64,000 nucleotides of DNA. Origin: Paraglaciecola marina. Lineage in GTDB: Bacteria; Pseudomonadota; Gammaproteobacteria; Enterobacterales; Alteromonadaceae. The notes under the pieces are model-generated. The model searched no databases, was not told the origin of the DNA, and saw only the letters and a program-made list of their open reading frames with translations. The stretch spans positions 277,078 to 341,077 of the forward strand of contig NZ_ML178720.1 in assembly GCF_004360155.1 (NCBI RefSeq), given 5' to 3'. Below are positions 1 through 10,131 of the stretch, one piece after another (position 1 is the first letter of the stretch; the number at the start of each line of letters is the position of its first letter). The translations under genes were made by a program, and so were the position numbers.

Positions 1-1160
1 AATGGCGCAACTGGCGGTATACTGTAATCAACGGCCCTAGTTAACGCTTCTTCACTGGGATTAGTGACATCATCGGTAAAGGGCTGCAATAACATGGCAT
101 AGCCAAGGTCGTCTTTGTGTTGTTCGAATATAGAAAGCTCTACCTCTGAGGCTTCTCCGGCACGCACACTGTCTAGTAATGCATAAGCTCTTATACCCGA
201 CAATATGCGTTCTCGGTTTATCTCTTTATGCTCTTTCAATCCCTTAACTTCCTCATCAAGTGAGCGAGTGGCAATAATTCCCATGGCGTATGGAATTTGC
301 AGGGCATAATCAACCTCTTGTGTTTCGTCATTAGGTATACCAAATACCGTAAAGTCTGCAGGGGCTTCTTGGGTTTCATATTCTGCTTCAACTGCAGCAA
401 GTTTTACTTGCTGTACATCACCCAACTCATAACCACTTTCATCACCTAAAATAATTACAGAGATAACTGACGCTAAACCAAAGCTTGCAGCTATAGCAAA
501 AGAGCGCCTTGCAAAGGCTACGTCTCGGCCTTTAAGTAAGTAATAAGCAGATATTGCCAATACAAAAACAGCGGCAGTCACATAGCCAGCTGATACTGTA
601 TGTACAAACTTAACTTGAGCGACGGGGTTAAACACCACTTCGCTAAAACTGGTCATCTCCATCCGCATTGATTCGAAGTTAAACTCTGATCCTACAGGGT
701 GTTGCATCCAACCATTTGCAATCAAAATCCACAAAGCTGAAAAGTTTGACCCTATTGCCACTAACCAAGTCGCCGTAAGGTGTTTAACCTTAGACATCTT
801 GTCCCAGCCAAAAAAGAACAAACCTACGAATGTCGATTCTAAGAAGAAGGCCATCAACCCCTCTATAGCTAAGGGCGCGCCAAATATGTCACCCACATAA
901 TGGGAATAGTAAGACCAATTCATACCAAACTGGAATTCCATAGTTAAACCAGTGGCAACACCTATGGCAAAGTTAATACCAAACAACTTCCCCCAAAACT
1001 TGGTCATTTGTTTGTAGATTTCTTTACCTGTCAAAACATACACAGACTCCATAATCGCCAGCATAAATGTCATGCCTAAGGTCAATGGAACAAATATGAA
1101 ATGAAACATGGCAGTCATCGCAAATTGCAATCGAGAGAGCTCGACTAACGTTTCGTTCAT
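1..1160 (-). CDS. cydA: Cytochrome bd ubiquinol oxidase subunit I, N-terminal part (runs off the window)
   Basis: Quinol-oxidising subunit of the high-affinity bd terminal oxidase in the inner membrane. The reading frame opens at an ATG behind a GGAG-type ribosome site and stays open for about 386 codons to the window edge; the family is usually about 520 residues, so the C-terminal quarter is missing. The start reads [20 protein letters not shown], typical of CydA including the N-terminal haem-ligand histidine. Next come the conserved segment ending [13 protein letters not shown] and the long periplasmic loop region. The window most likely ends before the conserved GRQPW motif. cydB is expected beyond the edge. 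The upstream region carries a sigma-54 element, an FNR box and a TGTCA-N4-TGACA palindrome, annotated separately. Confidence 0.95.
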
Positions 1161-1223
1161 TCAGTTTCTCCTAAAATGTGCTTATTAAAAAATAACAAAT
1201 TGAAAGTATTCTGGACGAGACTT

Positions 1224-1239
1224 TGCATTAGGTATGCCA
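1224..1239 (-). promoter_or_regulatory. Putative sigma-54 (-24/-12) promoter of cydA
   Basis: On the minus strand the sequence is TGGCATACCTAATGCA, against the consensus TGGCACGNNNNTTGCW. GG and GC are both present at the required spacing. It lies 64 bp upstream of the cydA ATG. The neighbouring gene for a sigma-54 activator and the upstream palindrome at 1326-1339 support it. Confidence 0.65.
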
Positions 1240-1293
1240 AATTCAAAATCAGCGTTAAGAACCTGATTTTAATAGGTATTTAGGTTGAAAAAA

Positions 1294-1307
1294 TTGATCT
1301 AGATCAA
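1294..1307. promoter_or_regulatory. FNR box upstream of cydA
   Basis: TTGATCTAGATCAA is a perfect match to the FNR consensus TTGAT-N4-ATCAA. It lies about 134 bp upstream of the cydA start, between the -24/-12 element and the distal palindrome. FNR is known to control cyd genes in Escherichia coli; a role here is inferred. Confidence 0.7.
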
Positions 1308-1325
1308 CAAGTAAAAAATAACCAC

Positions 1326-1339
1326 TGTCATATTTGACA
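1326..1339. promoter_or_regulatory. Putative upstream activator site for the sigma-54 regulator (cydA side)
   Basis: TGTCA-TATT-TGACA is a perfect inverted repeat 87 bp upstream of the cydA -24 element. A near-copy, TGCCA-AATA-TGACA, sits at 2191-2204 at a similar distance from a second -24/-12 element. The shared motif, arm spacing and promoter distance suggest enhancer sites for the activator encoded at 2244-3542. Confidence 0.5.
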
Positions 1340-1389
1340 TTGGTTACTCATACTTTAGTTGCAGCAGTTATTCACCAAAGAATAACAAG

Positions 1390-2007
1390 TTATTTCGTAA
1401 TGGTTTTAGTCAGGGAGAAAGCTCCGCGAATATCATCTAGAGTAAAGCCCGTAGCGGCATCTTCGGGATATTGGGCAGTAATAATTTGCTGTAGTGTTTT
1501 ATCAACTGAGGTTCCGTGGCACGCCAAACAGATTTGATCGGTAGGGATTGCTTTCATATATCTAAAGGTATCTTGAGTTTGTATGCTTGCCTCAAGCGTG
1601 GTTGCTGATACCCCTTGTTTAAACAAAGAGTCAAAATGTTTTAAATTCTTAATTTCCCAACCTGAAGCTTGGTTATCTGTATTGCGCACTTTTAAACTAG
1701 TTCGTGATATCTGCCAGCCATCAGTTGAAAGTGTTGCGGCAATTTGTGAAGCTTGATCTTTGCAAATATTGACGCCATTTTCGAACCCTCCGGTTTGAAT
1801 GGCGCTTACGAGAGTTTGTTTTAAAGTGGTAGCAAATACTTTTACTTTTTCCTTTGCTTCATTCTCAAGCTGTTTATTAACAACAACTTCTTGTGACACA
1901 TTATCTTTATGGATTGCCAATTCGGATGACCTAACTTCCGAATAACTAGCTGTACTTAGTAATAACAAAGTCAAAGCTAATGATTTTATCTTTAAATGCG
2001 CTTTCAT
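1390..2007 (-). CDS. DUF3365 (Tll0287-like) haem-binding protein, periplasmic c-type cytochrome
   Basis: A 205-residue exported protein with a signal peptide (about residues 1-23, hydrophobic LALTLLLLSTASYS) and a single CLACHG haem c motif near residue 158. This is the arrangement of the DUF3365 family of small c-type haem sensor or redox proteins. A conserved 'NICKDQA' segment lies around residue 80. The gene is directly upstream of cydA in the same orientation and has its own sigma-54-like promoter. The context suggests a role in respiratory redox sensing or in supporting the bd oxidase, but no reaction can be assigned. The CxxCH variant reads C-L-A-C-H. Confidence 0.8.
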   Translation of the reverse strand: MKAHLKIKSLALTLLLLSTASYSEVRSSELAIHKDNVSQEVVVNKQLENEAKEKVKVFATTLKQTLVSAIQTGGFENGVNICKDQASQIAATLSTDGWQISRTSLKVRNTDNQASGWEIKNLKHFDSLFKQGVSATTLEASIQTQDTFRYMKAIPTDQICLACHGTSVDKTLQQIITAQYPEDAATGFTLDDIRGAFSLTKTITK

Positions 2008-2081
2008 AATTTGTGAGTTCCTAGGTTAAAGGTGTTTGGGTATAAAGGTTTTATAAACCTCCGTAACTAGTTAATACAACA

Positions 2082-2097
2082 AACAAAACACATGCCA
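2082..2097 (-). promoter_or_regulatory. Putative sigma-54 promoter of the DUF3365 cytochrome gene
   Basis: The minus strand reads TGGCATGTGTTTTGTT. The -24 TGGCA is intact; the -12 is TTGT rather than TTGC. It lies 75 bp upstream of the start codon, with the palindrome at 2191-2204 about 94 bp further upstream. This repeats the cydA promoter layout. Confidence 0.45.
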
Positions 2098-2190
2098 TTT
2101 CAACTTCAGCGCTAATCTATATTTAACTAATTGATTTATATAACGAATAAATTTAAATCCTACAACCAAAGCTAAACCCTTTGTAATTAT

Positions 2191-2204
2191 TGCCAAATAT
2201 GACA
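2191..2204. promoter_or_regulatory. Putative upstream activator site (DUF3365/regulator side)
   Basis: TGCCA-AATA-TGACA matches the TGTCA-N4-TGACA palindrome at 1326-1339 with one arm mismatch. It lies between the divergent DUF3365 gene and the regulator gene, so it could serve both. A second symmetric element, GACA-AAAA-TGTC at 2213-2224, lies just before the regulator start and could be involved in autoregulation. Confidence 0.45.
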
Positions 2205-2243
2205 AAGTGATGGACAAAAATGTCAGTGTAAAGTGTATTAGCT

Positions 2244-3542
2244 ATGAATATATCTATCGTACAATCGATGATCAACGCCATTGAAAACCCTGCTATTTTC
2301 ATCAATACCGAATACAAAATTTTAGCGGTCAATCAAGCCTATAGAGATACTTACGATATTCAAGTAACACTAGGCAATAGTCACTGTTATGAGATTTCTC
2401 ATCAACATCAGCAGCCCTGTGAAAAACATGGTGAAGAATGCCCAATGCAACAATGCATGAAAACAGGCAGAACTAGCAGTGTGGTGCATATTCACAATAC
2501 TGAGCGCGGTAAAACCTATTGCGACATATTGATGAAGCCCATCAAAGATGAAGATGGTATTACAGCTGGCTTTTTAGAAATACTGAATCGCATTAATTAT
2601 GCGTCAGCTGAGTCACATTCCAACAGGATGATAGGAAGCTCAGCCCCCTTTAAGGCCATGTTAACTAAAATTAACCGCGCCGCTAAATCAGAGATTTCAG
2701 CACTGTTACACGGCGAAACGGGAACTGGAAAAGAACTAGTTGCCAAAGCTTTACACGAATCAAGCAAAAGAGCAGACAAGCCATTTGTGATAATTGAATG
2801 TACAGGTTTAAATGACAACTTATTTGAGTCTGAGCTATTTGGTCATGAAAAAGGAGCGTTTACAGGGGCCACGCAAGCTAAAAAAGGGCTTATAGAATTA
2901 GCCCATGGCGGCACGGTATTTTTTGACGAAATCGCTGATGTGCCTTTAACTATGCAGGTTAAATTACTAAGACTCCTAGAAACACAATGTTATCGGACTG
3001 TAGGTGGAATTAAGCAACGTAAAGCGGATTTTAGGTTAATCTGTGCAAGTCATCATAATTTACTTGAACTAGTGAAAAAGGGAGAGTTTAGGAAAGACTT
3101 GTATTACCGTATAGCCGGTTTCCCTATAAATTTACCGTCTTTAGCCAAACGCCATGATGACATCCCGGCCCTAGCTTTACATTTTTTACATGGCTCGGAG
3201 CTAGACCACAAAACCTTTTCAGATAAAGCATTAAACCAACTTAGCCGCTATAGCTTTCCGGGTAACATTCGTGAGCTAAAGAATATAGTGGAACAATCAG
3301 CTTTACTAGCCAATGAAGATACTATCAATGTAGATGATTTACCTGAATATATTCTTGATGAAAATTTTGCAGAGGTAGAGATAATAAAAGAGCTAGTTCC
3401 CTTAGATAAAGCGGAGGAATTCTATCTTACTCGAATTTGCAAAACCCAAAGCCTAGCTATAGATGAGCTCGCCCAAGAGCTTGGGATCAGCACCCGTACT
3501 CTGTATCGAAAGTTTAAAAAATATAATCTTAAGTATGAGTAA
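2244..3542 (+). CDS. Sigma-54-dependent transcriptional activator with cysteine-rich PAS domain
   Basis: A 432-residue bacterial enhancer-binding protein. Residues 1-115 form a PAS-type sensor with four clustered cysteines (C48, C59, C66, C71), a pattern seen in some redox- or metal-linked PAS domains. The central AAA+ domain has Walker A GETGTGKE (about 157-164), the sigma-54 contact loop GAFTGA (204-209) and Walker [13 protein letters not shown]. The C-terminus ends in a Fis-type helix-turn-helix ([16 protein letters not shown]). It lacks a receiver domain, so it probably senses its signal directly. Its position next to two promoters with matching -24/-12 elements and shared palindromes makes it the likely activator of cydA and the DUF3365 cytochrome gene. 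It differs from NorR, which has a GAF domain. Confidence 0.88.
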
Positions 3543-3775: not shown

Positions 3776-4969
3776 TTATTGTTTTAACACTCTTAGAATA
3801 TCCCAGAATGCGCCAATAGTGTGATAATCACACTTACCACCAGCTGTCGATTTTTCATCAGTTAGTTTTTGATTATCAGCAGTTAATATCCGATACCAAG
3901 CACCATACTGATGATCAACCATGTTTTGCCATGCATATTCCCAAATTTTTTGATACCACTGGCTATATTTGGTATCACCTGTCGCTTTTTCTAAACGTAT
4001 TGCTGCAGAGGTTGTTTCTGACTGCACCCAAAAGTACTTTTCATCATCACAAATACTACCATCTGGACCAAAACCATAAAATATCCCGCCATTTTTTGTA
4101 TCCCAGCCAACATCTAAGGCCTTATCAAATAGAAACTTTGCCCTATCTACCATCCAAGTTTCAGGCCGATAATCATGTAAAATCAGTAATAATTTTGCCC
4201 ACTCAGTCAAATGTCCAGGTTGAAACCCCCACGGCCGATACAAATTTTTTGGATCATCTTTGTTGTACTCCCAATCAATCTCTAATTGCTCGCTATAGTG
4301 CTCCCAAATAATACCGCCAGCTTTGTCAGCTAGTTCAATGGAAACCTTACGAGCTAGTTGACAGGCTATGTCTAAGTAACGGTTATCTGCCGTTGCCTCA
4401 TAAGCTGCAACAAAAGCTTCACAACAATGCATGTTGGCATTTTGGCCTCGATAGCTATTCACTTCTGACCAATCACTGCTGGCTTCGTCGGCAAACATCC
4501 CAATATTTTTATCCCATAGGCGAGTATGCAAAATATTGTGTGCACGTTGTAAATCAAAAAGTGCATTTTCAATTCCCACTTTATGGGCAGCAGAAAAACA
4601 TAAAATAACAAATGCTAGACCATAACAATGGTTAGTTTGATCAGTTGGTAAATGATTTTCACCCAACAACCAATTATAACCCTGCCTTTTGTCATCCCAA
4701 TGTTTGCTGCGAATGTAATCAACTCCATGCTTTGCTAGTGATAAGTACTCTTCATCACCATACAGCTCGTAAGCTTTGCAAAAAATCCATACCATTCTAC
4801 AACTTGACACCAAATGCCTATGGTGAGGATTAAAAACGCTACCATCGTCTTTAAAATTATGAAAAAAGCCACCACTTTTATCCACAATATTAGGTAAGTA
4901 AAAATCTAAAATTGATTGAATATGGGTTCGTAAAAAGCGTTCACTTTTAAAGTCTATTTGAATATCCAC
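3776..4969 (-). CDS. AGE-family epimerase/isomerase (N-acylglucosamine 2-epimerase fold)
   Basis: A protein of about 397 residues of the AGE superfamily ((alpha/alpha)6 barrel), which includes N-acylglucosamine 2-epimerases, mannose isomerases and cellobiose 2-epimerases. Family features are SGGFFHNF near the N-terminus, NANMHCCEAFVAAYEAT mid-protein, WGFQPGHLTEWAKLLL, and the C-terminal KCDYHTIGAFW. I chose the GTG at 4969, which has AGG 8 bases upstream, over an upstream in-frame GTG at 4993 without a ribosome site. No convincing signal peptide is seen, so it is probably cytoplasmic. As last gene of the carbohydrate operon it may isomerise a released mannose-type sugar; the exact substrate cannot be told from sequence. 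Confidence 0.8.
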   Translation of the reverse strand: MDIQIDFKSERFLRTHIQSILDFYLPNIVDKSGGFFHNFKDDGSVFNPHHRHLVSSCRMVWIFCKAYELYGDEEYLSLAKHGVDYIRSKHWDDKRQGYNWLLGENHLPTDQTNHCYGLAFVILCFSAAHKVGIENALFDLQRAHNILHTRLWDKNIGMFADEASSDWSEVNSYRGQNANMHCCEAFVAAYEATADNRYLDIACQLARKVSIELADKAGGIIWEHYSEQLEIDWEYNKDDPKNLYRPWGFQPGHLTEWAKLLLILHDYRPETWMVDRAKFLFDKALDVGWDTKNGGIFYGFGPDGSICDDEKYFWVQSETTSAAIRLEKATGDTKYSQWYQKIWEYAWQNMVDHQYGAWYRILTADNQKLTDEKSTAGGKCDYHTIGAFWDILRVLKQ

Positions 4970-5017
4970 TGCGTAAACCTGAGTAAAAAACACACTAAAA
5001 CATGCTAGTTATTAGAT

Positions 5018-5049
5018 TAAGAGCCTGCTTTGTTGTCAGCAGGCTCTTA
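5018..5049 (-). terminator. Strong intercistronic hairpin between the DUF1080 gene and the AGE gene
   Basis: A perfect 12-bp stem (TAAGAGCCTGCT paired with AGCAGGCTCTTA) with an 8-base loop lies in the 64-88 bp gap. In the direction of transcription it is not followed by a good U-run. It may be a partial terminator or an RNA-stabilising hairpin rather than a full stop. Confidence 0.55.
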
Positions 5050-5057
5050 TTTTTATC

Positions 5058-6437
5058 CTACAACTCTCGAATTTTTATAGAGCGAAACCTTACTTCATCA
5101 CCATGATCTTGAAGTAAAATCGGGCCCGTCTCCCACTCTCCGAAATTTGGCCATTTATGATATTTACTACGCTGAACTAAGGTGCGAAATATCTGCGTAC
5201 CACGGGGATAATCAACAACTTTAATGTTATTTAACCAATGCTGTACCCTACCATCTTTGACGACTATCCGTGCTCGGTTCCACTCGCCTACCGGATTTAC
5301 TCTTTTAGTTGTGCGGGTAGCTTCACTTAGGTTTGTTGCAGGAATAAGGTCATATAATGAGCCAATGGTTCTGTTGCCATTATTACCTTTTTTCGCATCT
5401 GGATGCTTTTCATCATGCAAGATTTGAAATTCTAAACCAATCGCAGAGCCTTGCCCTTTTAATAAATTAGGATCAACAAAATATTTAATGCCTGAGTTTG
5501 CGGTATCCGTTATTTTAAAGTCCACTTCCAACTCAAACTCACTGAATTCCTCAAGGGTGATAATGTCACCACCATTACGAGACTCAGCACCACCAGAGGA
5601 ATATACCACCAGCTCACCTTTTTCCACTCCCCATCCTTTTGCTGGAAACTCATCAAGTTTAGCGCCTTTCCAACCTTTGCTCGTTTTGCCGTCCCAAAGC
5701 AGTTTCCAGCCCTCACTCGTTTGCTTAGGCGAAAGCGTATTAGCTTGATAATTAATTTCTTGTACATGGCTAGGCATATACCAACGCTCGGCATTGAGGT
5801 CTTTAGTGAGAATTTTAGGAGAGCGCATTCTCACTTTTTTACCTGCTAGAGCTTTGTCACTAATGCTATGAACTTGTAACGCTATAAACCCCTCTTGATG
5901 GCCAGCTTCGCTATCCAAAATGTCAGCACAAGGCACACCATTAATCCAAGTGCGAATTTGATTATCGACAGCTTCAACTCGATATTTATTCCACTTGTCT
6001 ACATCAAACGCTTCTTGACAGCCCTCGTTACGAGATAGAGTATAAAGCCAACCCCTCTTTGCTTCTTCATACACCCCTCCACTCCACTTGCGCTCACTAG
6101 TATCAATTTCGACTTGATATCCATGAACTCGGCCTTTTTCAAAACTCCTTTTAGATTGACTCCGGAATTGAATGCCGGAGTTGAGACCTTGATCAACATT
6201 TATTTCTGCTTCAAAAATAAAATTGCCATAGTCTTTTTTAGTGGTTAAAAAAGAATTAGGACTATTTACCACTGACTCACCGACGATTGCTCCATTTTCT
6301 ACAGTATATTTGGCATCACCACCTACTTGCTTCCAACCCGATAAGCTTTTTCCATTAAAAAGCGATGTCCATTCAGCCCCTTGTGCACTTAATGACAAAC
6401 TAGTTGCTGCGATTAGTAATATTGTTGTGTGTTTCAT
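5058..6437 (-). CDS. Exported protein with two DUF1080 (3-keto-disaccharide hydrolase-type) domains
   Basis: A 459-residue protein with an N-terminal signal peptide (MKHTTILLIAATSLSLSAQG). Two tandem DUF1080 concanavalin-like domains follow, each opening with a signature of the LFNGKSLSGWK / LWDGKTSKGWKG type (about residues 25 and 246). Each domain has the family's Asn-Ser-Gly-Ile motif (LNSGIQFRS and ANSGIKYFV). Members of this family have been shown to hydrolyse or cleave 3-keto-glycosides. It is preceded by a strong GGAG ribosome site. The Gfo/Idh/MocA gene lies just upstream, giving the dehydrogenase-plus-hydrolase pairing expected of a 3-keto-glycoside route. Periplasmic location is inferred from the signal peptide. 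Confidence 0.83.
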   Translation of the reverse strand: MKHTTILLIAATSLSLSAQGAEWTSLFNGKSLSGWKQVGGDAKYTVENGAIVGESVVNSPNSFLTTKKDYGNFIFEAEINVDQGLNSGIQFRSQSKRSFEKGRVHGYQVEIDTSERKWSGGVYEEAKRGWLYTLSRNEGCQEAFDVDKWNKYRVEAVDNQIRTWINGVPCADILDSEAGHQEGFIALQVHSISDKALAGKKVRMRSPKILTKDLNAERWYMPSHVQEINYQANTLSPKQTSEGWKLLWDGKTSKGWKGAKLDEFPAKGWGVEKGELVVYSSGGAESRNGGDIITLEEFSEFELEVDFKITDTANSGIKYFVDPNLLKGQGSAIGLEFQILHDEKHPDAKKGNNGNRTIGSLYDLIPATNLSEATRTTKRVNPVGEWNRARIVVKDGRVQHWLNNIKVVDYPRGTQIFRTLVQRSKYHKWPNFGEWETGPILLQDHGDEVRFRSIKIREL

Positions 6438-6469
6438 TACTTACTCCTCATTATTAACTTTTATAAAAA

Positions 6470-7792
6470 CTAAATTTTTGGTGCCCAACCTGGCGCATAG
6501 TCTCGCTGCCAGTGCAAAAGTGCTGATTTAGATTTGGGCTTACCGTTTGCTGGATCACATATCAATGTTTCATTGCTGCGATAAGCCATATTGGCTAAGT
6601 GACACATAAGCGTACTCTTATGGCCTTCATCTATTGGTGAAGCTTGGTGTTTAGTTTCTCCTCTTAAAGTGCTAATGAAGTTATTAACGTGCATACGGGT
6701 TAATATGCCTCCGCCCATTAGATCACCTGAGTCATTGCTTTGCTTAATTTTGCTTTCACTCACTAGATTGTTGTCTAAGTCATAAATTTCATACCCTGTT
6801 CGGTCTAAAATTACATAACCTTTGGTGGCATAAATAACTAAGCCTCTGCCTCGACCCCATTTCAAAACTCGATTACACGAATGACCATCCCAGACAATTT
6901 TTTTGTTATTAGCGAAGGTAAATTCCGCATTCATAGTGTCGTACATCTGCCAGTCGTCAGATTTGAAAAACTGACGCGAGGCATCTACAGCCACTTTTTC
7001 AGGAAATTCGCCTTGAATAGCCCAACGAGCAATGTCTAATTCGTGTGCAGCATTGTTGCATGTCTCAGCGGTTCCCCAATGCCAAAACCAATGCCAGTTG
7101 TAATGAACATAGTTGCTATAGTAATCTTTGCGGGGAGCTGGCCCTTGCCATAGATCCCAATTCAACCAATCTTGCGGGGCTACCTTCTGACCATTACCAA
7201 TAGATTTACGGTTGTTGGCATACCAGGTGTAAACCTTATAAACCTCTCCAAGGTGACCACCATGGAGCATCTTAATAAGTTGTGCGGTTTCATTAGATGA
7301 CCTTTGCTGGTTACCCATTTGTACCACTTTATTGTACTTCTGCTGTGCGGCCACAAGCATTTCGCCTTCAGCTGGGTTGTGGCCACATGGCTTTTCAACA
7401 TACACATGTTTACCTGCCTGTAATGCCATAATTGCAGCAGGTGCATGCCAGTGATCAGGCGTCGCTATCGCCAGCGCGTCGATATTTTTGTCTTCTAAGG
7501 TTTCTCGTATGTCTTCTTGCAACACAGGTTTGCGACGATTGCTATCAATCAGGAGTTTGGATGCTTGGGCAAGCACACGTTTATCAACATCACACACATG
7601 GGTAATTGCGCAGTTTGGAGTTGTAAAAAAACCATCAAGTAAAGCCTTACCTCTGCTGCGTGCTCCCATTAAAGCTATATTAACTCGGTCATTAGCCCCT
7701 AAAATATTGCTATAACTTCTACTACTCATAGCGAGCGAAGAAGCCGCAGCAATGGCTCCAGATGCTTTAATAAAATCTCTTCTTGTCGTCAT
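6470..7792 (-). CDS. Tat-exported Gfo/Idh/MocA-family oxidoreductase
   Basis: A 440-residue NAD(P)-dependent sugar oxidoreductase. The N-terminus MTTRRDFIKASGAIAAASSL is a twin-arginine signal, so it is exported folded, presumably with bound cofactor. The Rossmann region begins VNIALMGARSRGK and the family motif EKPCGHN lies near residue 134. The C-terminal domain has the large-substrate form (HYNWHWFWHWGTAETCNNAAHELD). Periplasmic members of this family oxidise the C3 hydroxyl of glycosides or act as glycosidases through a tightly bound NAD. It sits 32 bp upstream of the DUF1080 gene, and the two probably act in sequence. An alternative is a secreted NAD-dependent glycosidase of the GH109 type. 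Confidence 0.85.
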   Translation of the reverse strand: MTTRRDFIKASGAIAAASSLAMSSRSYSNILGANDRVNIALMGARSRGKALLDGFFTTPNCAITHVCDVDKRVLAQASKLLIDSNRRKPVLQEDIRETLEDKNIDALAIATPDHWHAPAAIMALQAGKHVYVEKPCGHNPAEGEMLVAAQQKYNKVVQMGNQQRSSNETAQLIKMLHGGHLGEVYKVYTWYANNRKSIGNGQKVAPQDWLNWDLWQGPAPRKDYYSNYVHYNWHWFWHWGTAETCNNAAHELDIARWAIQGEFPEKVAVDASRQFFKSDDWQMYDTMNAEFTFANNKKIVWDGHSCNRVLKWGRGRGLVIYATKGYVILDRTGYEIYDLDNNLVSESKIKQSNDSGDLMGGGILTRMHVNNFISTLRGETKHQASPIDEGHKSTLMCHLANMAYRSNETLICDPANGKPKSKSALLHWQRDYAPGWAPKI

Positions 7793-7794
7793 AA

Positions 7795-10131
7795 TTATTC
7801 TCCACTATGTCTAGGCTCGTCGCCCATTTCCAGTTGTAAAACGCCACCAGCGACGATTTCTTGATGGGTTAAATAAAACCGTTGAATACGCTTACCGTTT
7901 AATAAAACAGATTGAACGTAACGGTTGCTATTAGAGTTATTGAGAGTTTCAATAACAAATGATTTTCCGGGGTAGTAAGTCTCATCTAACGCAATTTCAA
8001 TTCGGTCAAAAATCGGACTACCAATCTGATAAATGGCTTCTTTAGAGGTACCACCATCAACTTGAAACAAGCCAATTTTTAACAATACTGACAGGGATCC
8101 CATAAGACCTTGGTCTTCATCGCCATTGAATCCATCAGTGCTAGATACGTTGCTATAAACACTATTAACTATTTCTCTCGTCCAATATTGAGTTAAATGG
8201 GGGTTACCTAATTCGTTAAAGAGAAATGCCGTTTGTATAGAGGGTTGGTTTCCATAGTTAATAGGGATTTTTCTGTTTTCTTCATTGGTTTCTTCGTGAT
8301 GCGCGCTGCCCGATGTAAATCCCTGCTTGCTCGCCACTTCAAATGCTTTATTCAAACGAACCGAAGCCACCGATTTGCCTCCCATTAATTCGGCTAATCC
8401 CTCAAGATCATGGGGTACAAACCAGGTCATCTGGGCTGAATTTGATTCTACAAAACCATGTTGATAATCAAGTGGGTTAAAGTTGGGCTTCCAGTGACCT
8501 TCGATGTTTTTGGGGCGCATATAACCGGTTTCTGCATCGTAAATATGCTTATAGTTTTGGCTACGCTTTAAAAAATAATCACTGTCTTGGAATTTTCCTA
8601 AAGCTAAAGCCAGTTGTGCTAAGGTCCAATCTTGAAATGAATACTCTAAGGTTTGCCCAGCGCCGTCTTGATGAAATGCACCATTTTTAGGGGGTAAGGG
8701 ATAAGGTACATAACCCATGTCTATGTAATATTCCAACCCACCAGAATAAGCACTGTCATGTTCGTAACCGGCGCGCCCCATAGTTCCTCCGGGGAGGTGA
8801 TTTTTTTTCAGGGCTTGGTAGGCTAGTTCAACATCAAAGTCTCTGATCCCTTTCATATAATTACTGACAAAAAATGGTGTTGCAGTCGCGCCTGTCATTA
8901 CATGGGTGTAATTACCGCCAGAAGGACCTCTTGGAATGAATCCACCATCTTTGTACATGGCCAACATAGAACGTGAAAAATCTGATGCGACTTTAGGGTA
9001 AGCCAGAGGCCATAATGTTTGAATAGTCCACTGGGCTCCCCAGAAAGAATCTGAATTGTGGTGATTAAACTGAGGCGTATTCTCACCAGTCATAGGGATC
9101 TGCTTAATTTTACGCTCAGGCTGGGTTTGATCAGAGTATCGGCCATCAACGTCTGATATGATTCTTCGGCCTTGTAATGCATGAAATAAATCCGTGTAGA
9201 ATCGGGTTTTATCTTGCTCTGAAGAACCAGTTACCTTTATTTTTGATAACCAAGCATTCCAATCTTCAGTGGCCTCTTTAACTATGTCATCAAATTGCCA
9301 GGAACTGAGCTCTTGCTGCATATTTTGTTTCGCCCCCATTTCATCAACATAAGAAATAGCTACTTTCATCAAAATAGGTGCGTCACCATCAGCAAAGCCC
9401 AGTAATACCCGCTCTGATGTTTCATCAAGATTTAAAATAGGAGTGTCTACTTCAACGTAGAAAAATATTGGTGTGGCGCGAGGGCGTCGAATGGTTGGAG
9501 CATTAACAATAGAGCCACTAAAGCTTTGAGCCGAAATTTGAGTAAACTCTCCTTTGCTAAGCTCACTTGGACCAAATTTGCCTTGCAGGTCAAAAAGAAC
9601 TTTCCGATTTTTAGCCGCTTTGTAAGTATAACGATGAAACCCCACCCGAGTTGTCGAGGTAAGCTCTACATCTATGTTATATCTATCAAGAGTGAGTTTG
9701 TGGTAACCGGCTTTCACTGTTTCTGTCTGATGGCTAAACCCACTGAAATAATTTTTATCTAGCTCTGGAGCAGCCGACTCAGTCACCATTGGCATAACCG
9801 ATGGCCCTGCCAATTGCCAAGCGTGCACATGGTTAAAGCCCTTTACCTCTTCAGTGTTGTAACGATAACCACTGCCCCACGCCCCTTCTATTTCAGTATC
9901 TGGACTTAAATTAACCATACCAAATGGACGAGTGGCGCTATTAAAGTAAAACCAGCGGGAATTAGCTGAATCTAACCAAGGCCATACATATTCAACAGGC
10001 TCTTTGATTGTTTTGGTTTCACCTTCAACAAGAGACTGAATATCATGCTCAGTCTTAGCTTCATTACATGCAGATAGTAGAAGTAAACATATAAAAAGTG
10101 TTGTAGCACCGTTAGTAATTAAAGCTCTCAT
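7795..10131 (-). CDS. GH92-family alpha-mannosidase-like lipoprotein (divergent)
   Basis: A 778-residue lipoprotein (lipobox LLSAC, Cys22) resembling glycoside hydrolase family 92, calcium-dependent exo-alpha-mannosidases. Family landmarks are RPFGMVNLSPDT, GSGYRYN...GFNHVH near the N-terminus, GQTLEYSFQDW, FVESNSAQMTWFVPHDLEGL, and YGNQPSIQTAFLFN followed by IGSPIFDRIEI at the C-terminus. Several positions differ from standard GH92 sequences: the usual NDDCGQMSAW region reads GDEDQGLMGSL, and the EGN-type motif reads VESNSAQ. Activity or linkage may therefore have shifted. It ends 2 bp before the oxidoreductase start, so the two are co-transcribed. The mature enzyme is probably anchored to a periplasm-facing or outer membrane. 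Confidence 0.8.
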   Translation of the reverse strand: MRALITNGATTLFICLLLLSACNEAKTEHDIQSLVEGETKTIKEPVEYVWPWLDSANSRWFYFNSATRPFGMVNLSPDTEIEGAWGSGYRYNTEEVKGFNHVHAWQLAGPSVMPMVTESAAPELDKNYFSGFSHQTETVKAGYHKLTLDRYNIDVELTSTTRVGFHRYTYKAAKNRKVLFDLQGKFGPSELSKGEFTQISAQSFSGSIVNAPTIRRPRATPIFFYVEVDTPILNLDETSERVLLGFADGDAPILMKVAISYVDEMGAKQNMQQELSSWQFDDIVKEATEDWNAWLSKIKVTGSSEQDKTRFYTDLFHALQGRRIISDVDGRYSDQTQPERKIKQIPMTGENTPQFNHHNSDSFWGAQWTIQTLWPLAYPKVASDFSRSMLAMYKDGGFIPRGPSGGNYTHVMTGATATPFFVSNYMKGIRDFDVELAYQALKKNHLPGGTMGRAGYEHDSAYSGGLEYYIDMGYVPYPLPPKNGAFHQDGAGQTLEYSFQDWTLAQLALALGKFQDSDYFLKRSQNYKHIYDAETGYMRPKNIEGHWKPNFNPLDYQHGFVESNSAQMTWFVPHDLEGLAELMGGKSVASVRLNKAFEVASKQGFTSGSAHHEETNEENRKIPINYGNQPSIQTAFLFNELGNPHLTQYWTREIVNSVYSNVSSTDGFNGDEDQGLMGSLSVLLKIGLFQVDGGTSKEAIYQIGSPIFDRIEIALDETYYPGKSFVIETLNNSNSNRYVQSVLLNGKRIQRFYLTHQEIVAGGVLQLEMGDEPRHSGE

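Follow-up and report, generated by a model that had tools for sequence, protein, structure and literature searches.

The stretch of DNA considered here, referred to throughout as the window, comprises 64,000 nucleotides of Paraglaciecola marina (contig NZ_ML178720.1, positions 277,078 to 341,077), and its first 3.5 kb hold the cytochrome bd oxidase gene cydA and a DUF3365 (Tll0287-like) gene on the minus strand, together with a divergent gene for a sigma-54 activator on the plus strand. The 5' part of cydA (3..1160, minus strand; PF01654) runs off the window edge. In the genome it is followed in the same direction by cydB and two CydD/CydC-like ABC-transporter genes (locus L213; L numbers denote loci fetched for comparison and G numbers genomes), the best models for the latter two being CydD and CydC, although both fall below those models' cut-offs. 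Given this co-directional arrangement, one promoter may serve the oxidase together with its assembly genes. The DUF3365 gene (1390..2007, minus strand; PF11845, 3.6e-23) encodes a protein of 205 residues that matches the solved Tll0287 chain 5b82 (E 3.6e-10) and in which a signal sequence and the haem motif CLACH can be made out by inspection; it is a probable periplasmic monohaem cytochrome. The activator gene (2244..3542, plus strand) encodes 432 residues with a PAS_4 domain, an AAA+ domain (Sigma54_activat, 1.3e-64) with its GAFTGA loop at residues 204-209, and a weakly matched C-terminal helix-turn-helix of the Fis type, the Pfam score for HTH_8 standing barely above its cut-off (22.5 against 22 bits). 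RpoN itself is encoded in the genome.

Promoters served by sigma-54 are marked by GG around -24 and, a fixed spacing away, GC around -12, and candidate elements were scored with our own weights on this consensus, the maximum being 14.8. Upstream of cydA lies the element TGGCATACCTAATGCA (1224..1239, minus strand; 13.1 of 14.8), in which GG and GC are present at the fixed spacing and which has equivalents in relatives, and upstream of the DUF3365 gene lies TGGCATGTGTTTTGTT (2082..2097, minus strand; 12.4 of 14.8). Each is accompanied by a palindrome that could serve as an enhancer, that is, as a putative binding site for an activator of the FisR type. The putative site of cydA, TGTCATATTTGACA (TGTCA-N4-TGACA, 1326..1339), occurs in a single copy 86 bp upstream of its -24/-12 element, while putative site 1 of the DUF3365 promoter, TGCCAAATATGACA (TGCCA-N4-TGACA, 2191..2204), stands 93 bp upstream of its own. 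A degenerate putative site 2, GGACAAAAATGTCA (GGACA-N4-TGTCA, 2212..2225; 7 of 8 core letters), is found 21 bp from the latter palindrome, a distance that is the commonest pair spacing before the cydA genes of relatives and among the commoner ones before their DUF3365 or sulfide-quinone reductase (SQR) genes. An earlier, sequence-only reading had placed both -24/-12 elements and both palindromes exactly where they were found, and had described the PAS-AAA-Fis activator with its intact GAFTGA loop next to cydA and the DUF3365 gene; its distances of 87-94 bp between palindrome and promoter needed correction to 86 and 93 bp.

On its own the palindrome means little, since a scan of the 4.64 Mb genome with its pattern gives 33 match rows, at 27 distinct places, against 12 rows for a reversed control pattern, which is near chance. 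The combination with a promoter is more restrictive. When a -24/-12 element was sought at 50-180 bp from 24 of the 27 places, only the two described above had one scoring above 12, and both are intergenic; three further places have weak elements (11.3, 11.3 and 11.6), all within open reading frames (ORFs). No additional target was found among these 24 places.

The arrangement is conserved in relatives. Homologues of the activator at E <=1e-110 occur in 77 of 395 genomes of the family, the window's own included, and all 77 activator loci were fetched, some of them ending at contig ends; genomes without a match at this threshold are termed activator-negative. Altogether 126 cydA places were considered, of which 54 are linked to the activator and 72 are not; from the latter, G375 (with a stop) and G340 (incomplete) were dropped, and 60 of the 70 then listed were fetched. 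A module was counted where TGNCA-N4-TGNCA, matched at 9 or more of its 10 positions and with the middle letters left free, stood 60-160 bp upstream of a -24/-12 element scoring at least 11.8 of 14.8, the whole falling within 450 bp of the gene start. Such a module precedes 44 of the 54 linked cydA genes and three of the six unlinked ones in activator-bearing genomes, against 3/54 in activator-negative genomes and 11/2700 shuffled regions; with a perfect TGNCA-N4-TGNCA the corresponding counts are 31/54, 3/6, 0/54 and 0/2700. At least one module was seen in 13 of the 16 genera with linked cydA. The Fisher value (1.2e-16) overstates the evidence, because related genomes are not independent. The co-occurrence of palindrome and -24/-12 element across orthologous loci was the check put forward in the sequence-only reading, which would have been refuted by palindromes lacking conservation there. 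The palindromes proved to be conserved, and the claim that a dedicated enhancer-binding protein has recognisable sites upstream of both cydA and the DUF3365 gene thus gains comparative support.

The module-positive cydA genes of activator-negative genomes are those of L217, L218 and L249. Beside the module-bearing cydA of L217 (G393), a 53-residue fragment of the activator (62% identity) is found at 1968-2126, as if the activator had been lost recently.

Moreover, the sites in these regions are often paired, and the spacing of the pairs is helical. Before cydA the spacings are chiefly 21 bp (17 pairs), 20 bp (8), 9 bp (8) and 32 bp (7), and before DUF3365 or SQR genes 9 bp (10), followed by 21, 22 and 32 bp (5 each), the 9-bp spacing representing one palindrome that overlaps a neighbouring half-site. 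Pairs at 19-22 or 31-33 bp were seen in 38 of 54 linked cydA regions and 21 of 43 DUF3365/SQR regions, compared with one of 54 controls and none of 1080 shuffles; no spacing of 18-23 or 30-34 bp arose in the shuffled regions.

The sensor domain of the activator points to the kind of protein that it is. Its PAS domain carries the pattern C48-x10-C59-x6-C66 (codons at 2385-2387, 2418-2420 and 2439-2441 within 2385..2441, plus strand), and all three positions hold cysteine in every one of the 81 aligned rows, among which are that of Cupriavidus metallidurans and one duplicate contig. The homologue in C. metallidurans is full-length, shares 33% identity with the window's protein over the PAS domain (E 2e-26) and is divergent from persulfide dioxygenase (PDO) and SQR-like genes, the source record having no annotation there. 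On sequence grounds the activator is classed as a FisR-type enhancer-binding protein, and as FisR-type instead of FisR proper because SQR and PDO genes are not beside it in the window. Nitric oxide (NO) sensing of the NorR type was considered and rejected: the protein reaches 262 of the 476 bits required by the NorR model of NCBIfam, and has PAS_4 with no GAF match. An AlphaFold2 model of the activator, built from only three sequences, had a mean pLDDT of 52.9 and a pTM of 0.28 and was not used.

Gene neighbourhoods tie the activator family to sulfide as well as to cytochrome bd. The ORF families around the activators include cytochrome bd genes, DUF3365, a flavoprotein that among proteins of solved structure best matches sulfide-quinone reductases (E 3.7e-158), and persulfide-dioxygenase-like and type III SQR-like genes, the last two scoring under the cut-offs that their best models set for the whole protein. 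Among the 77 activator loci, a cydA ortholog is present in 54, any cydA-like gene in 59, SQR or PDO in 32 and DUF3365 in 34, and a cydA or cydA-like gene and/or SQR or PDO lies nearby in 73. In L153, L154, L159, L163 and L196, a distant cydA-like gene (34-36% identity) adjoins the activator in place of the cydA ortholog.

Further afield, activator homologues were found in 11 of 295 genomes of the order (cut-off 1e-100) and in 31 of 369 of the class (1e-95), family members being included in both searches; 34 places lie outside the family, and 22 of them were fetched as loci. All 22 retain C-x10-C-x6-CP. In 20 of the 22, a palindrome matching 7 or more of the 8 core letters stands within 100 bp of the activator, and in 19 it is joined by a -24/-12 element pointing away from the activator; these counts over the 22 loci come without a shuffled control. 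Within 1.5 kb upstream, matches to SQR, PDO, CydA or DUF3365 occur in 15 of the 22, a TauE-type match alone in one, and nothing recognised in six. Since cydA is upstream of the activator in L279, L286 and L301, as well as in the Pseudoalteromonas plasmid record L275, the link extends beyond a single family.

How such a circuit might operate can be outlined from published work, cited here and below from excerpts of the reports: FisR is described as sensing reactive sulfur via cross-links among three conserved cysteines (PMC9774590), its ATPase activity as rising in response to reactive sulfur (PMC12170894), and bd oxidases as insensitive to sulfide (PMC4815019). Given the sites, their conservation, the co-occurring activator, the sensor cysteines and the sulfide genes beside its relatives, it is probable that sulfane sulfur activates the window's FisR homologue, and that sigma-54 transcription of the DUF3365 gene and cydAB follows via the palindromes. 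As reactive sulfane sulfur (persulfide or polysulfide from hydrogen sulfide) accumulates, C48, C59 and C66 of the PAS domain would become cross-linked, by analogy with published FisR. The activator, presumably seated some 90 bp upstream at the palindromes (TGYCA-N4-TGRCA), would hydrolyse ATP at RNA polymerase-sigma-54 and so fire the -24/-12 promoters of cydAB and of the gene for the DUF3365 cytochrome, the cydAB transcript possibly running through cydDC. Respiration could thereby shift to the sulfide-resistant bd oxidase when the haem-copper oxidases would be poisoned; the genome encodes two of these, which makes a sulfide-resistant alternative sensible.

Several observations weigh against this proposal. 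It is reported that the FisR of Acinetobacter baumannii has no regulatory cysteines and still answers sulfide (PMC7315123), so that the three cysteines are no universal mark of a sulfide response. In the window, the DUF3365 -24/-12 element has the GG, but its -12 part reads TTGT and not TTGC (GT for GC), a variant (TTGT or TTGTT) that also precedes many DUF3365 and SQR genes of relatives; cydA has a single enhancer as against the frequent pairs of relatives; and a perfect FNR-type box, TTGATCTAGATCAA (1292..1305), between the cydA enhancer and the -24/-12 element offers another possible route of control. Among the relatives, ten of the 54 linked cydA regions are below the module threshold. All ten contain parts of the module: in L167 and L169 cydA immediately follows DUF3365, in L162 and L177 the site is more than the permitted 160 bp away, the module is behind another gene in L206 and L208 and past 450 bp in L205, and the -24/-12 scores fall short of 11.8 in L178 (11.6), L198 (10.9) and L209 (11.4). 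The three of six unlinked cydA genes that have no module (L224-L226) encode a more distant CydA, with 67-69% identity. Four of the 77 activator loci (L142, L144, L145 and L155) have no cyd, SQR or PDO gene nearby. Finally, the window's genome gave no match to type I SQR, in a search whose positive controls worked and whose query misses type III SQR, which was not searched for, and no PDO at 1e-10, in a search run without a positive control.

The missing type I SQR deserves closer attention. No SQR or PDO gene is found beside the window's activator, and no SQR remnant was found in window positions 1-2300. The best SQR match in the genome is very weak (E 0.0019) and belongs to a protein of 404 residues; this candidate was rejected, as its matches to SQR and to type III SQR are short and it looks like a flavoprotein of the ferredoxin-reductase type. 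Among the 77 activator-bearing genomes, type I SQR was matched at 1e-6 in 32 (in at least three only as fragments) and unmatched in 45. Because G227, G197 and G047 belong to the unmatched set at 1e-6 despite type III SQR genes beside the activator (L156, L158 and L211), the type I query is evidently blind to type III SQR. In a quick tree of the activators, the product of a short search with long branches, the window's protein groups with three loci of the order activator-SQR-DUF3365-cydA (SH-aLRT 86, below the starred level), a placement which suggests that loss of type I SQR in this lineage brought DUF3365 next to the activator. Thus, as far as the tree and the searches can tell, type I SQR was probably lost from the window's lineage and the switch kept. 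In another relative, L166 (G036), a 31-residue remnant of the SQR C-terminus persists between activator and cydA, 166-258 bp upstream of the activator start, and is recognisable as a trace of gene loss.

It could be argued that the sigma-54 circuit is real and that its cysteines answer a different signal, such as oxygen, NO, thiol oxidation or redox state, with cytochrome bd serving as an oxygen- or NO-tolerant oxidase. Cysteine clusters can respond to more than one oxidant, and protection against NO is a further role of cytochrome bd; that neither the window's genome nor 45 of the 77 activator-bearing genomes gave a type I SQR match would fit as well. However, the protein has PAS_4 in place of a GAF match and is far below the NorR cut-off, and the recurrent neighbours of its relatives are sulfide-oxidation genes, the Cupriavidus relative adjoining PDO and SQR-like genes, so that we regard a different signal as unlikely. 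The sequence-only reading had suggested oxygen or NO, which is probably wrong, given that FisR is indicated by the sensor domain with its three invariant cysteines and by the recurrent SQR/PDO neighbours.

An explanation that we consider improbable holds that cydA is mainly under an FNR-type regulator acting from a sigma-70 promoter, the sigma-54 module being minor or decaying. In its favour are the perfect box before cydA, a TAAAAT hexamer that by inspection misses the usual -10 distance by some 2 bp, the presence of such a box in 11 of 54 control cydA regions as well, and the lone enhancer copy. Nevertheless, this cydA has an intact -24/-12 element and an intact palindrome, and conservation of the module extends across genera; among the activator-linked regions, no more than 10 of 54 have an FNR-type box, at varied positions. 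The box is more readily seen as a second input, an FNR-type regulator probably acting in addition and not being displaced; the sequence-only reading, which had contrasted its sigma-54 circuit with the usual cyd control, finds comparative support for the sigma-54 module and missed the box. In L206 and L208, the gene between the sigma-54 module and cydA is one that we take from its sequence to be MarR-like, and an FNR-type box lies 67-68 bp ahead of it. Very improbable is the binding of the palindromes by a different regulator, with incidental -24/-12 matches, for although the palindrome alone is near chance in the genome, the module goes with the activator, before linked cydA genes and before some that are unlinked, and is rare where no activator was found, the spacing of the pairs is helical, and the palindrome with an outward -24/-12 element recurs in 19 of the 22 loci fetched outside the family, a set with no shuffled control.

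Apart from this circuit, window positions 3776-10131 hold a carbohydrate locus on the minus strand, with genes for a GlcNAc 2-epimerase family protein, a two-domain 3-keto-disaccharide hydrolase, a Gfo/Idh oxidoreductase and a GH92 glycosidase.

If sulfane sulfur is indeed the signal, a further step may tentatively be considered, although we would put it at somewhat less than an even chance: after the loss of type I SQR, the targets left to the FisR-type sensor would be just two, a periplasmic haem protein and the oxidase that resists sulfide. A switch for sulfide detoxification would then have turned into one for respiratory protection, in which sulfane sulfur is sensed to change the oxidase and not to oxidise sulfide. 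In the literature found, as excerpted, sulfide raises cydAB expression in several bacteria and no regulator is tied to that response. The family of loci described here offers a testable wire for it, in which a likely sensor of sulfane sulfur is joined by a defined site of 14 bp and by a sigma-54 promoter before cydA. Excerpts of the open-licence literature searched, which omits most subscription papers, contained neither an assignment of cydAB to FisR or any sigma-54 activator nor the palindromic site as a FisR site; the regulator family is already known, and within that literature its use on cydA and the 14-bp site appear to be new. The candidate FisR binding motif could reveal FisR regulons in other genomes, and DUF3365 cytochromes would become linked to sulfide genes.

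Known systems resemble this circuit in part. NorR is likewise a sigma-54 activator that answers a small reactive molecule, but the window's protein differs from it in having PAS_4, no GAF match and 262 of 476 bits. The cydAB genes of Escherichia coli, controlled by ArcA and FNR, share with the window's cydA an upstream FNR-type box; in contrast, the latter has a conserved sigma-54 promoter, upstream sites and a linked activator. Among FisR proteins, two are compared here by description, that of A. baumannii and that of Cupriavidus pinatubonensis JMP134, the latter reportedly the subject of Li et al. 2017. The A. baumannii protein is described as a sigma-54 activator required for the sulfide response and divergent from a PDO-SQR operon, an arrangement resembling that of the C. 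metallidurans homologue; sulfide raises cydAB transcripts there, and the excerpted report does not tie FisR to cydAB (PMC7315123). Unlike the window's protein, it is without the regulatory cysteines (PMC7315123). The JMP134 protein is, like the window's, a sigma-54 activator with three conserved cysteines, reported as a sulfane-sulfur sensor (PMC7315123, PMC9774590, PMC12170894), and the C. metallidurans relative with its adjoining PDO and SQR-like genes has the same C-x10-C-x6-C spacing as the window's protein. While the reported targets of the JMP134 protein are sulfide-oxidation genes, the candidate targets in the window, whose genome has no type I SQR match, are cydAB and the DUF3365 gene.

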